Below, piece by piece: positions 46,966-52,214 of a stretch of 64,000 bases of DNA. Origin of the DNA: Nocardioides sp. Kera G14. GTDB taxonomy: Bacteria; Actinomycetota; Actinomycetes; Propionibacteriales; Nocardioidaceae. The position numbers and the translations under genes were made by a program. The first letter of the stretch is position 1; each line of letters begins with the position of its first letter. The notes below the pieces were generated by a model that saw nothing but the letters and a program-made list of their open reading frames with translations, was not told where the DNA came from and searched no databases. Location: NCBI RefSeq assembly GCF_020715565.1, contig NZ_CP085839.1, positions 372,001 to 436,000 on the forward strand. The letters run 5' to 3'.

Positions 46966-47156
46966 TCGTGGCTCGATGTGTCCGACTGACGTCCTGCTGG
47001 GCTGTCTTGATTCTGTAATGCCCGGCTCTGGTGGAGGCCGTTGAACGGCGCCAGCCGGGCGGACATGACTTCATAAGAGCCTGGCAAGCGCCTCATTACT
47101 GTCCTGTCTGCCCACCCGGCTGGGGCCCACCCTCACGAGTGGAAGGCAGTTCCAGC
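46966..47156 (+). ncRNA. Candidate IS110 bridge RNA region
   Basis: Roughly 190 untranslated bases before the IS110 transposase. It contains a strong nested hairpin: GCCCGGCT..GG (47020-47031) pairs with CCAGCCGGGC (47051-47060), enclosing GCCGTT/AACGGC (47037-47042, 47044-47049). IS110-family elements are known to encode a structured bridge RNA in the 5' non-coding end that guides the recombinase. RNA boundaries and the guide loops are not determined here. Confidence 0.5.
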
Positions 47157-48368
47157 ATGACAGTCGAAGCACAGTCCGGGCAGGTCTACGGCGGCGTGGA
47201 CACCCACGAGGAATCGATCCATGTCGCCGTCATCAGCGCCTTGGGCCACGACCTGGGCGACAAGGAGTTCCCCACCAGCCCCGAGGGCTACCAACGCACC
47301 TTGGCGTTCATCACCAGCCACGGCGATGTGGCCGCGGTCGGGATCGAGGGCACCTCCTCCTACGGAGTCGGCATCGCCACCGCGGCCCGCGCCGCCAACA
47401 TCGAGGTCGTCGAGGTGATGCGGCCCGAACGCGCCGAACGTCGTCGCCTGGGCAAGTCTGACCCGATCGATGCCTACCAGGCGGCGCGCGCGGCGCTGGG
47501 CTCCCATCGCACGGCTCCCGCCAAGGACCCCGCGGTCATTGAAGGCATCCGGGCCCTGCACAACGCCCGCCGCTCGGCACGCAAGGCGAGGACTGCAGCG
47601 ATGATCCAGATCCACCACCAGCTCATCACCGCGCCCACGGCGATCCGCGAGCGCTACCGCTCGATGGGACGCGAGGAGCGCATCAAGGTCCTCGCCCGCA
47701 TCCAGATCCGACCAGACCGTGAGTCCCTCGAGCGGGCCATCATGCTGGCCCTGAAGACCCTGTCCCAGCGCTGCATCGAACTGCAGCGTGAGCACGACAA
47801 GCTCGGCATCGAGCTCGACCAGCTCGTCACCGCCGCCAACCCCGGGCTGCGGGCCGCCTACGGCGTCGGCCCCGACACCGGTGCCCAACTGCTGCTCACC
47901 GCCGGCGGCAACCCCGAGCGCCTACGGTCCGAGGCAGCCTTCGCAGCACTCTGCGGCACCAGCCCGATCCAGGCATCCTCGGGCAAGATCACCCGGCACC
48001 GGTTGTCCCGTGGCGGGGACCGTACCGCTAACAGCGCACTGCACAGCATCGCACTGGTACGCATGGCCAAGGACCCCCGCACCAAGGACTACGTCACCAA
48101 GCAACGCCAGGCCGGCCTCAGCTCGATGGAGATCATCCGCAAACTCAAGCGCGCGATCGCCCGGGAGGTCTTCCGTTACCTGACGACCCCCGTCACCGTC
48201 CCGGCCGTCGACGACCTGCGTCCGCTGCGCCAGGCCAAGAACATCACCCTGACCACCGCAGCCAACGAGCTCGGCGTCTGGCCCATCACCATCAGCGAGC
48301 TCGAACGCGGAATCCGCCGCAACGACAACCTCGCCCAGACCTACCGAAACTGGCTCCACGTCGCTTGA
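47157..48368 (+). CDS. IS110-family DEDD transposase with XRE-like C-terminal tail
   Basis: 403 residues from ATG 47157 (GGAAGG upstream). The RuvC-like DEDD domain has GGVDTHEESIHVAVI, VGIEGTSSYGVG and KSDPIDAYQAARAAL. The C-terminal Tnp20 domain has AYGVGPDTGAQLLLTAGG, CGTSPIQASSGKITRHRLSRGGDRTANSALH with the candidate catalytic Ser. Both look intact. The last 45 residues (LTTAANELGVWPITISELERGIRRNDNLAQTYRNWL) resemble an XRE helix-turn-helix, which many IS110 transposases lack. Confidence 0.93.
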   Translation: MTVEAQSGQVYGGVDTHEESIHVAVISALGHDLGDKEFPTSPEGYQRTLAFITSHGDVAAVGIEGTSSYGVGIATAARAANIEVVEVMRPERAERRRLGKSDPIDAYQAARAALGSHRTAPAKDPAVIEGIRALHNARRSARKARTAAMIQIHHQLITAPTAIRERYRSMGREERIKVLARIQIRPDRESLERAIMLALKTLSQRCIELQREHDKLGIELDQLVTAANPGLRAAYGVGPDTGAQLLLTAGGNPERLRSEAAFAALCGTSPIQASSGKITRHRLSRGGDRTANSALHSIALVRMAKDPRTKDYVTKQRQAGLSSMEIIRKLKRAIAREVFRYLTTPVTVPAVDDLRPLRQAKNITLTTAANELGVWPITISELERGIRRNDNLAQTYRNWLHVA

Positions 48369-50175: not shown

Positions 50176-50655
50176 TCAGGCGCGGAGTTCGAGCAGGATC
50201 GTGTCCCGCCAGGCTCCGTCGAGCTGGGCGATCCGCTCACGACAACCGACCTCGCGGAAGCCTGCCCGGCGGTGGAGGGCGAGACTCGCGGTGTTCTCCG
50301 GGAAGATCGACGTCTGCAGCGTCCAGAAGCCGGCCTCCTGCGCCGCCCGCACCTGGTGCGCGATCAGCAGCGTGCCGAGCCCGCGCCCGATCAGAGCGGT
50401 GTCGAGGTAGATCGACGTCTCGCCGACACCGCGGTAGCACTCGCGTGCCGACACAGCGGTCATCGCGGCCCAGCCGGCGACGGCTCCCTCGTGCTCGATC
50501 ACCCAGCGCTGACCTGCGATCCACTTGGCGTCGAGCGCCTCTGCGTCCGGAACGGCCGTCTCGAAGGTCGCGTTCCTCGTCTCGATGCCGAGCCGATAGA
50601 TCCGGCGTACGTCGCCCCAGTCCCGTTCCTCGAGGGCCCGGATCTGCGCCGCCAT
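50176..50655 (-). CDS. GNAT acetyltransferase, phosphinothricin/methionine sulfone type
   Basis: 159 residues: IRALEERDWGDVRRIYRLGIETRNATFET, VAGWAAMTAVSARECYRGVGETSIYLDTALIGRGLGTLLIAHQVRAAQEAGFWTLQTSIFPENTASLALHRRAGFREVG. These match the Pat/MnaT family. In arsenic clusters a member of this family (ArsN) acetylates arsenical analogues of phosphinothricin. Here its ATG overlaps the arsC stop (TGATG), so an ArsN-like role is a fair inference. Confidence 0.85.
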   Translation of the reverse strand: MAAQIRALEERDWGDVRRIYRLGIETRNATFETAVPDAEALDAKWIAGQRWVIEHEGAVAGWAAMTAVSARECYRGVGETSIYLDTALIGRGLGTLLIAHQVRAAQEAGFWTLQTSIFPENTASLALHRRAGFREVGCRERIAQLDGAWRDTILLELRA

Positions 50656-51062
50656 CACCGGCTTCCGGGCACGAGTTCGGCCACCAGGGCGGTGACGCGC
50701 CCTTTGATGTCGTCGCGGATCGCCCGGACGGTCTCGATGCCCTGACCGGCCGGATCCGCGAGATCCCAGTCGAGATAACGCTTGCCGGGATACCAGGTGC
50801 ACTCGTCGCCGCAGCCCATGGTGATGACGATGTCGGCGGCCTGCATCAGCTCCGGGGAGGCGAACTGCGGCGCGGCCGACGAGATGTCGATGCCCTCCTC
50901 GGCCATCGCCTCGACGGCCACCGGATTCAGCGCCGTCCCGGGCTGGGAGCCGGCGGAGAGGACGGCGACCGAGTCCCCCGCGAGGTCGCGGAGGAACCCG
51001 GCCGCCATCTGGGAGCGCCCAGCGTTGTGGACGCACATGAAGAGCACGGTGGGGGCGCTCAT
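50655..51062 (-). CDS. arsC: Arsenate reductase, low-molecular-weight phosphatase type
   Basis: 135 residues from ATG 51062. P-loop VLFMCVHNAGRSQMAAGFLRDLA with the nucleophilic Cys; later ITMGCGDECTWYPGKRYLDWDLADPAGQ with the Cys pair region and Asp acid. It reduces arsenate to arsenite. A longer form from ATG 51104 is possible but lacks a ribosome site. The chosen ATG is one base after the stop of the six-cysteine mini-ORF, suggesting coupling. Confidence 0.9.
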   Translation of the reverse strand: MSAPTVLFMCVHNAGRSQMAAGFLRDLAGDSVAVLSAGSQPGTALNPVAVEAMAEEGIDISSAAPQFASPELMQAADIVITMGCGDECTWYPGKRYLDWDLADPAGQGIETVRAIRDDIKGRVTALVAELVPGSR

Positions 51063-51063
51063 G

Positions 51064-51120
51064 TCAGCAGCAGCCTCCGCAGCAACCGGGGTCGCAGCAG
51101 TCATCGTGTGTTGTCGTCAT
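51064..51120 (-). CDS. Cysteine-rich 18-residue peptide upstream of arsC
   Basis: MTTTHDDCCDPGCCGGCC: six cysteines in three adjacent pairs in the last eleven residues, plus one His and three Asp. The ATG at 51120 has AAGGTGAAGGC just before it. The stop is followed after one base by the arsC ATG, so the two are probably translationally coupled. It is the first reading frame transcribed from the ArsR-type control region. It could be a metalloid-binding peptide or a leader peptide controlling arsC. No homologue is known to me; too short for most gene callers. Confidence 0.6.
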   Translation of the reverse strand: MTTTHDDCCDPGCCGGCC

Positions 51121-51132
51121 GCCTTCACCTTG

Positions 51133-51171
51133 CGACATGACATAGACGGCTGTCAATATAGATACATGTCG
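51133..51171. promoter_or_regulatory. Divergent ars control region, candidate ArsR operator
   Basis: TGACA (51138-51142) and TGTCA (51151-51155) form an inverted repeat with an eight-base centre; CGACATG (51133-51139) and CATGTCG (51165-51171) form an outer pair. The site lies between the divergent arsC-side and arsR-side genes and includes the AT-rich TATAGAT. ArsR-family dimers bind such imperfect palindromes. Confidence 0.58.
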
Positions 51172-51504
51172 AAGTCCCTGCCCCTCGTCGAGTGCTGTGC
51201 ACCGGTCACCAAGGAGCCGATGACGGCCGAGCAGGCCGAGGGCGTCGCGCCGATGCTCAAGGCGCTCGCGGACCCGGTGCGCCTGCGTCTCCTCAGCCTC
51301 GTCGCCGCCCACGAGGACGGGGAGGCCTGCGTCTGCAACCTCAACGACGCCTTCGACCTCTCCCAGCCGACGATCAGCCACCACCTCAAGGTGATGCACG
51401 AGGCGGGCCTCCTCGACCGTGAGAAGCGCGGCACCTGGGTCTACTACGCCGTACGCCGCGACGCGCTCGCCGATCTCGCCGCGCTGCTCGGAGGGGCGGC
51501 GTGA
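51166..51504 (+). CDS. arsR: ArsR-family metalloregulatory repressor
   Basis: 112 residues. Winged helix: LKALADPVRLRLLSLVAAHEDGEACVCNLNDAFDLSQPTISHHLKVMHEAGLLDREKRGTWVYYAV. Possible sensing cysteines are C10 and C11 near the N-terminus and C55 and C57 in ACVCNL. That set resembles the As(III) site of corynebacterial ArsR (N-terminal Cys pair plus one Cys before the DNA helix). It would release the divergent promoter on arsenite. Confidence 0.93.
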   Translation: MSKSLPLVECCAPVTKEPMTAEQAEGVAPMLKALADPVRLRLLSLVAAHEDGEACVCNLNDAFDLSQPTISHHLKVMHEAGLLDREKRGTWVYYAVRRDALADLAALLGGAA

Positions 51505-52214
51505 GGGCCGACGTCGGACGCCGCCTCCTGGCCGAGTTCCTCGGGACGGGTCTCCTCGTCGCCGTCGTGGTCGGCTCGGGCATCGCCGCTCAGCAGCTGT
51601 CGCCGCACGACGTCGGGCTGCAGCTGCTCGAGAACTCGATGGCGACGGTCTTCGGGCTCGCTGCGCTGATCCTCGTCTTCGGGCCGGTCTCGGGCGCCCA
51701 CTTCAACCCGGTCGTCACCCTCGCCGACTGGGCGCTCGGGCCCGACCGTCACGCCGGTGGCCTGCCGGGAGTGGCCGCCTATCTCGTCGCCCAGGTGGCG
51801 GGTGCAATCGGGGGCGCGATCCTGGCCAACGTCATGTTCGGCGTCGACACGTCCCTCTCGGGCAAGGACCGCGACTCGGGCGGGCACCTCGTGGCCGAGG
51901 TCGTCGCCACGGCCGTCCTCCTCCTGCTGATCTTCAGCCTGGTCCGCACCGGCCGCGACGCGTGGGTCGCCCCCGCCGTCGGCGCCTACATCGGCGCCGC
52001 CTACTGGTTCACCTCGTCGACGAGCTTCGCCAACCCTGCCGTCACGGTCGGCCGGATCTTCTCCGACACCTTCGCCGGCATCGCCCCTGCGTCGGCGCCG
52101 GCGTTCATCGCCATGCAACTGGTCGGGCTGGCCGTCGGCGTACTGCTGGTGGTGGTGCTCTACCCGGTCGCCGCGCCGGTCGTGCCGACAGCGCCGGGCC
52201 CCGTGGAGGACTGA
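51501..52214 (+). CDS. Aquaglyceroporin of the ars operon (AqpS-like)
   Basis: 237 residues, MIP family with six helices. The two half-helix motifs are HFNPVVTLADW (NPV in place of NPA) and SFANPAVTVGRIFSDTFAGI. In Sinorhizobium an aquaglyceroporin, AqpS, replaces an ArsB pump and lets arsenite made by ArsC leave the cell. No ArsB/Acr3 is present here, so the same arrangement is likely. Overlaps arsR by four bases. Confidence 0.9.
   Translation: MRADVGRRLLAEFLGTGLLVAVVVGSGIAAQQLSPHDVGLQLLENSMATVFGLAALILVFGPVSGAHFNPVVTLADWALGPDRHAGGLPGVAAYLVAQVAGAIGGAILANVMFGVDTSLSGKDRDSGGHLVAEVVATAVLLLLIFSLVRTGRDAWVAPAVGAYIGAAYWFTSSTSFANPAVTVGRIFSDTFAGIAPASAPAFIAMQLVGLAVGVLLVVVLYPVAAPVVPTAPGPVED

Follow-up and report, generated by a model that had tools for sequence, protein, structure and literature searches.

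Phytochelatins are short thiol peptides, acidic and Gly-rich, which chelate As(III) and are made enzymatically from glutathione. Bacterial metallothioneins (SmtA/BmtA, MymT) are small, Cys-rich proteins of about 50 amino acids or more with few aromatic residues, and they are controlled by metal-sensing repressors; SmtB and ArsR belong to one superfamily. Here we describe a Cys-rich mini open reading frame (ORF) at the head of an arsenic-resistance (ars) operon in a stretch of 64,000 nucleotides from Nocardioides sp. Kera G14 (contig NZ_CP085839.1, positions 372,001 to 436,000; this whole stretch is called the window). The mini-ORF (51064..51120, minus strand, 18 codons, the TGA counted in the coordinates) translates to MTTTHDDCCDPGCCGGCC. 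It has a Shine-Dalgarno (SD)-like sequence, AAGGTGAAGG (51122..51131, minus strand), just 5' of its ATG, and one base separates its TGA from the arsC ATG (51062-51060) in a TGA-C-ATG junction. An 18-residue peptide with its own ribosome site and a stop one base before arsC had been proposed in an earlier note on this DNA, and all three features were confirmed. The mini-ORF is likely to be an overlooked gene. Its sequence and setting suggest that it probably represents a genuine gene and belongs to an unannotated, ArsR-controlled actinobacterial group, whose products (7-30 amino acids, acidic, Gly-rich, with paired Cys) would most likely be miniature metallothioneins.

Similar ORFs are present in ars neighbourhoods at 26 distinct loci, the window included, which were found by scanning the surroundings of related ars genes. 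The census is positional, covers the fetched loci and used fixed criteria: 6-45 codons, at least four Cys, at least 20% Cys, at least two C.?C motifs and an SD-like 4-mer. Duplicate loci were merged (L001/L031/L140, L014/L062/L150 and L026/L210). Copies are found in 13 of 80 named arsC loci, in seven of 110 arsR loci from the window's family (L140-L169 and L196-L275, the top of a list and not a random sample; the window is one of the seven), in one of 30 arsO loci and in five of ten plasmid loci, the last picked by arsC or arsO matches; the locus sets overlap in two loci. Other families of the class, with 60 arsR loci scanned, gave none.

The encoded peptides are 7-30 amino acids long, contain paired Cys and consist otherwise mostly of Asp, Gly and Thr. 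Twenty-five of the 26 end in CC (24 of 25 analysed together, and L420). The 25 peptides comprise 440 residues, with 152 Cys, 96 Asp and 61 Gly (309 together) and eight residues from the set FWYILVM, Cys content being itself a search criterion. In the window's family, Nocardioidaceae, Nocardioides sp. Root240 encodes MDDCCTGTGCC (L062), and the other peptides are MCDCGCC (L159), MDTCGCGCCGC (L210), MSENECCDCCGCC (L203), MAENECCDCCGCC (L204), MSCCEDCCDNCQEDCC (L211), MTDLEIACCADAAVAEASTDGCCGGIPCC from Nocardioides phosphati (L079) and MDDCDCGCC from an Aeromicrobium metagenome-assembled genome (MAG; L103). A Cryobacterium MAG (L096) and a Micrococcales MAG (L112) encode MHDCCDPVECPTNCATRCPGGPCC and MHECCDPVDCPPDCGTHRPDGPCC. 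An Arthrobacter type, exemplified by MNTGCCGDSGCCDDDQDCC (L125) and MTTGCCENGCCDDDQDCC (L420), has 15 copies on chromosomes and plasmids of Arthrobacter, Pseudarthrobacter and Paenarthrobacter, together with L297 and L420.

These peptides resemble the bacterial metallothioneins in being small, rich in Cys and poor in aromatic residues, and in their expected control by a metal-sensing repressor. They differ in their shorter length, in their location in ars operons and in their neighbouring CC pairs. With phytochelatins they share shortness and an abundance of thiols, acidic residues and Gly, but they are gene-encoded and not made by an enzyme. Six longer members (20-30 amino acids), a set that does not include the window's 18-mer, gave no match in Pfam or NCBIfam up to an E-value of 10. 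No description of such peptides was found in the open-licence PMC literature.

It is unlikely that the mini-ORF arose by chance. MTTTHDDCCDPGCCGGCC is the only ORF that the fixed criteria return in the 64 kb window, and the same criteria with SD gave no match in a control of 20 regions of 20 kb (400 kb) from related genomes, the sole set intended to be random. Among 20,000 first-order Markov resamples of the 105-nt stretch between arsR and arsC, five contained any such ORF. The SD contributes to the contrast with the control, because when it is dropped the control yields four matches in 400 kb and 80 arsR loci yield nine in 488 kb. A functionless chance ORF in this genome would fit with the lack of a close relative of the exact peptide in 198 family genomes and with an operator-like site (described below) that is the weakest of ten. 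The control and resampling results, and the agreement of slot, composition and codon usage with the other copies, make such an ORF a highly improbable explanation.

The same DNA can be read in a second frame. GGAGG at 51074..51078 (minus strand), within the GGA GGC (Gly-Gly) codons of the mini-ORF and 11 nt 5' of the arsC ATG, is the likely arsC SD. An alternative in-frame ATG at 51104 would add a 14-residue, Ala-rich extension, MTAATPVAAEAAAD (51063..51104, minus strand), to ArsC; if arsC started there (MTAATPVAAEAAADMSAPTVLF...), the Cys frame would merely overlap Ala codons. This frame is open and has an ATG, N-terminal extensions are present in many ArsC relatives (e.g. P0008-P0011), and the copy in L210 shows a comparable overlap with the open frame of its next gene. 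Codon usage disfavours the longer ArsC. With codon frequencies taken from 28 long, high-GC3 ORFs in the window, the synonymous log10 likelihood of the shared stretch is -4.20 in the peptide frame, compared with a mean of -4.15 (standard deviation 1.70) for 938 gene windows, and -11.78 in the extension frame, a level to which 0.2% of the gene windows fall. The extension frame owes its low score to five GCT codons, one GTT and one ACT, all rare here. The argument is strong without being final, since codons near gene starts can be atypical. In all 11 copies tested, which belong to the arsR-divergent group and include those of the window and L210, codon usage is better in the Cys frame than in either of the other two. 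There is also no normally spaced SD 5' of 51104. We consider the extension quite improbable. In L210 (2853-2888, minus strand) the next gene reads as glpD-like, and its open frame crosses the mini-ORF as an Ala-rich stretch, as the arsC frame does in the window.

Selection on the frame can be seen in the Arthrobacter-type group. In 14 aligned ORFs pN/pS is 0.37 in frame (0.22-0.57 by bootstrap over codons) and 2.0 and 1.1 in the other two frames, from sequence pairs that are not independent. A slightly different set of 14 copies gives 0.40, and in that set the first two CC pairs are kept in all 14. The third pair has been lost from L327 by an in-frame deletion. The non-Cys residues are likewise constrained. 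The Arthrobacter-type frame is under purifying selection; this is demonstrated for that group and not for the window's copy, because the latter has no close relative.

A palindrome resembling CATCGA-N6-TCGATG starts 31-40 nt 5' of the ATG in ten of the 11 arsR-divergent copies, L211 being the exception. It matches at 9 of 12 positions in the window (CATAGA-N6-TCAATA on the plus strand, 51141..51158, 20 nt 5' of the mini-ORF ATG), at 10 of 12 in L062 and at 11 or 12 of 12 in the other eight. The 400 kb control holds 102 matches at 9 or more, seven at 10 or more and none at 11 or more. The fit at the peptide loci, the window's site among them, is partly circular, because the consensus was read by eye there. 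A result free of this circularity is that most of 30 arsR loci listed, peptide-less ones included, have similar boxes next to arsR and to the divergent gene, and for that reason the boxes are probably the ArsR operator.

The slot divergent from arsR is shared with known detoxification genes. Among the 110 family arsR loci it holds arsI/cadI in 48 and a mini-ORF in six; genes reading like acr3, arsO or arsM occupy it in others, and nothing was recognised in many. The seventh family copy, L211, is instead divergent from a second ArsR-like gene. The slot, with its ArsR-operator-like boxes, looks like a cassette site for arsI/cadI, for acr3-, arsO- or arsM-like genes, or for a mini-ORF. ArsI/CadI proteins in the slot have at least two Cys in the examined end stretch in 48 of 49 cases, and their C-terminal tails (e.g. 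L197, L205, L219) contain one CC pair or two, frequently with CC or CCA as the last residues. This is possibly a metalloid-handling tail beyond the VOC domain, a domain that the slot protein of L152 contains (NF041414, 188.6 bits against a cut-off of 116). The mini-ORF product differs in being a free peptide without the enzyme domain: NF041414 did not match any of the six members searched against NCBIfam, and 7-30 amino acids are too short for it. Given the shared slot and the CC tails, the peptide resembles a free-standing CadI tail.

The identical promoter slot and similar tails would also be expected if the mini-ORFs were decayed arsI/cadI genes, reduced by internal deletions to a functionless start and CC tail. 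The strong SDs, the clean stops and the retention of Cys in L159, L203, L204 and L210, four congeneric genomes that share a glpD-like neighbour (by reading), speak against decay, as do the Arthrobacter-type copies, which lie elsewhere and are under purifying selection. We therefore attach very little credence to functionless remnants; an origin by deletion from arsI/cadI with function retained is possible.

The mini-ORFs are found divergent from arsR, before an aquaporin gene, after arsC, or between trxB and an arsO-like gene, and directly before arsC in the window only. In L062, L079, L159, L203, L204 and L210 the mini-ORF is divergent from arsR and faces an arsR-aqp-arsC operon. In L096, L103 and L112 it heads a divergent peptide-aqp-arsC operon, and in the window the order is peptide-arsC. 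Most Arthrobacter-type copies have the order trxB-peptide-arsO-like; L137 has arsC-peptide-arsO-like, L297 has arsR-aqp-peptide-arsO-like-arsC-trxB and L420 has arsR-aqp-arsC-peptide. The arsO-like protein has a weak NCBIfam match (62.6 bits against a cut-off of 425). A GC-rich hairpin without a T-run, CCTGCCGG...CCGGCAGG, lies 3' of the mini-ORF and before the arsO-like gene in L113 (4592-4650), L137 (3527-3600) and L328 (3917-3980), which is all three of the Arthrobacter copies folded. In L103 (2328-2380) the aquaporin ATG seemingly lies within the last codons of the peptide (GGATGCTGCTGA, two frames), a tight overlap of ORFs.

Polycysteine short-ORF attenuators of mycobacteria have reportedly been described by Canestrari et al. 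2020, and they raise the question of whether the mini-ORFs are leaders. On such a model the Cys codons would form an upstream ORF on which ribosome speed reports the supply of Cys-tRNA or thiols, a supply that arsenite might deplete, and so sets the expression of arsC (or of aqp or arsO). Like polycysteine attenuators and Cys leaders, the mini-ORFs are very short, actinobacterial and rich in Cys codons, and some of them immediately precede the next gene. Cys leader peptides are described before cys operons, including before cbs in B. longum (PMC1262725), and cysteine-responsive short ORFs are described in M. smegmatis (via PMC9094748 and PMC9031893). These ORFs are described as preceding cysteine or operon genes and acting in cis, whereas the mini-ORF neighbours are ars genes. 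These neighbours are arsR, aqp, arsC, trxB, arsO-like or, by reading, unrelated genes, and none is the sulfur or cysteine gene that goes with the attenuators.

Further points concern the ORFs themselves. An SD-like sequence precedes the mini-ORF copies as found by a scan that demanded one; a leaderless AUG, at the 5' end of the transcript, characterises the attenuators. The Cys are mostly in spaced pairs, and non-Cys residues are constrained too in the Arthrobacter-type group. A gene lies directly downstream of the mini-ORF in the window, with arsC one base on, and in several other copies, but not in L420 and L079. The L420 copy is the last of its operon, with a strong hairpin (z -5.4) next and then a convergent ORF. 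In L079 the stop codon of the mini-ORF abuts a convergent tRNA-Lys, and the next open frame on the same strand is about 300 nt on. Cis action on a next gene fails for these two copies, because they have no gene directly downstream. The next same-strand gene in L062, L159, L203, L204 and L210, as read from the sequence, is not ars-like.

The leader nevertheless is a serious rival, because Cys leaders are known in actinobacteria, the window's layout suits one and ten of 15 copies folded have an unusually stable fold in the 60 nt after the stop. These ten have z -2.7 or lower (100 mononucleotide shuffles), one of them being the tRNA of L079; the fold is not unusual in the window (z -1.0), L159, L203, L204 and L211. 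The earlier note had offered both a mini-metallothionein and a Cys-rich leader. The former is favoured here as a prediction, and the latter is disfavoured as a general role by L420 and L079. Overall we judge the leader unlikely, with perhaps a minor share of the probability, and cis action is possible for copies other than these two. The window's copy could combine a peptide function with translational coupling of arsC.

A miniature As(III)-binding peptide is the favoured role. Arsenite, or an organoarsenical, would release ArsR from the divergent promoter, and the peptide would be made in the same burst as ArsC. Its neighbouring thiols would hold As(III) until export or further chemistry; six Cys could take about two As, at three thiolates per As. 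In the window, ribosomes that translate the mini-ORF may also pass on to arsC at the TGA-C-ATG junction. Translation, induction by arsenic, binding of As(III), protection and the common descent of all copies are what we infer.

Several points weigh against this reading. Peptides this short may be degraded quickly. The distribution is patchy, as the counts for the family (seven of 110 arsR loci) and for other families (none of 60) show, and the common descent of the groups is unproven because the sequences vary so much. The SD-like motif was a condition of the scan. The window's copy stands alone among 198 family genomes, and its operator-like site, at 9 of 12, is the weakest of the ten, at a level that the control reaches 102 times per 400 kb. 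The next-gene frame is open across the mini-ORF in L210 too, where codon usage favours the Cys frame. Two of the observations that fit a leader belong here as well, namely that the next gene follows closely in the window, L096, L112 and L103, and that the folds after the stop are often stable.

More tentatively, and with slightly less than even confidence, the peptides may be a ribosomal counterpart of phytochelatins: ArsR-controlled, ultra-short As(III) chelators that replace ArsI/CadI and buffer arsenite between ArsC and efflux. They would then be the genes for intracellular sequestration that ars operons reportedly lacked. If As(III) is bound, few gene-encoded metalloid ligands would be smaller than these peptides, which would be easy to synthesise and test and useful for biosensors and remediation. 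The results suggest that such tiny genes are passed over by gene annotation, and position can reveal CC-rich ORFs of fewer than about 30 codons that a sequence search misses.

The sequence searches illustrate this. With MTTTHDDCCDPGCCGGCC as query the window alone appears below an E-value of 0.02, both in the family (198 genomes) and in the class (394 genomes). On reading, 24 of 26 class matches looked like chance (two without full flanks were skipped), and the final criteria returned none of the 54 loci from these searches (28 family, 26 class, the window's own excluded). Peptide sequence search is insensitive, as copies located by position were missed: in the family of genome G199 (197 genomes) it found L420 and missed G199's own copy (L297). 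The 30-residue peptide of L137 gave no tblastn match in plasmids, though plasmid records reached via arsO hold copies, and it has no match in the PDB.

The earlier note had proposed looking for CC ORFs upstream of arsC in other actinobacteria, and would have counted a lack of conservation of the frame or its cysteines in relatives as refutation. For the type this refutation fails: paired-Cys mini-ORFs do recur in ars operons, and the Arthrobacter-type frame is under purifying selection. For the exact place it succeeds, since the window excepted none lies directly 5' of arsC in the 80 named arsC loci or in 30 family loci. Coupling to arsC is peculiar to this genome, because none of the 80 loci has it and the MTTTHDDCCDPGCCGGCC search in the 198 family genomes returns only itself below an E-value of 0.01. 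Cys frames in L126 and L134, whose ends lie about 100 nt 5' of arsC, and in several of the 30 family loci were judged to be chance or pieces of longer frames. Two ORFs, MCCGSCCECTNAWCTNR in L067 (about 1.7 kb beyond arsC) and MSGTRPGCCPASVRPPCTACCSPW in L227 (where cadI occupies the slot), pass the final criteria, were judged chance and were left uncounted. L095, L099 and L172 failed the final criteria and were dropped. Sixty class loci were also scanned loosely; nine of them had CC...CC frames, most of which lay within longer frames or formed their ends, and these too were left out of the count. Frames in L363 (2737-2877, minus strand) and L417 (1987-2097, minus strand), from two other families, end in CC...CC...CxCR and are perhaps the ends of larger proteins.

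In the window, arsC (50655..51062, minus strand) encodes an arsenate reductase of the low-molecular-weight (LMW) phosphatase type and is the single match in the 3.47 Mb genome at an E-value of 0.001 or below. It is followed on the same strand by a GNAT acetyltransferase gene (50176..50658, minus strand), whose product resembles ArsN1a (142.8 bits, below the NCBIfam cut-off of 170), and by a CDF transporter gene. Opposite the mini-ORF and divergent from it are an ArsR/SmtB-type regulator with an N-terminal CC (51166..51504, plus strand), resembling the Rv2640c family (103.9 bits, below the cut-off of 155), and a MIP/aquaporin-family channel (51501..52214, plus strand). Rfam gave no match up to an E-value of 1 in 50500-51800, and a scan of 50900-51500 for a consensus sigma-70 promoter found none.

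Five plasmid records with Arthrobacter-type copies list no gene for the mini-ORF, in a gene table that is incomplete by its own description. On pTC2 (L326, 3863-4000) the start of a deposited 'putative Secreted protein' overprints the mini-ORF, and related plasmids place this start about 140 nt further on. Near the ars cluster of the window lies a transposase-like ORF (47031-48368, plus strand), which has the look of the IS110 family by reading alone.
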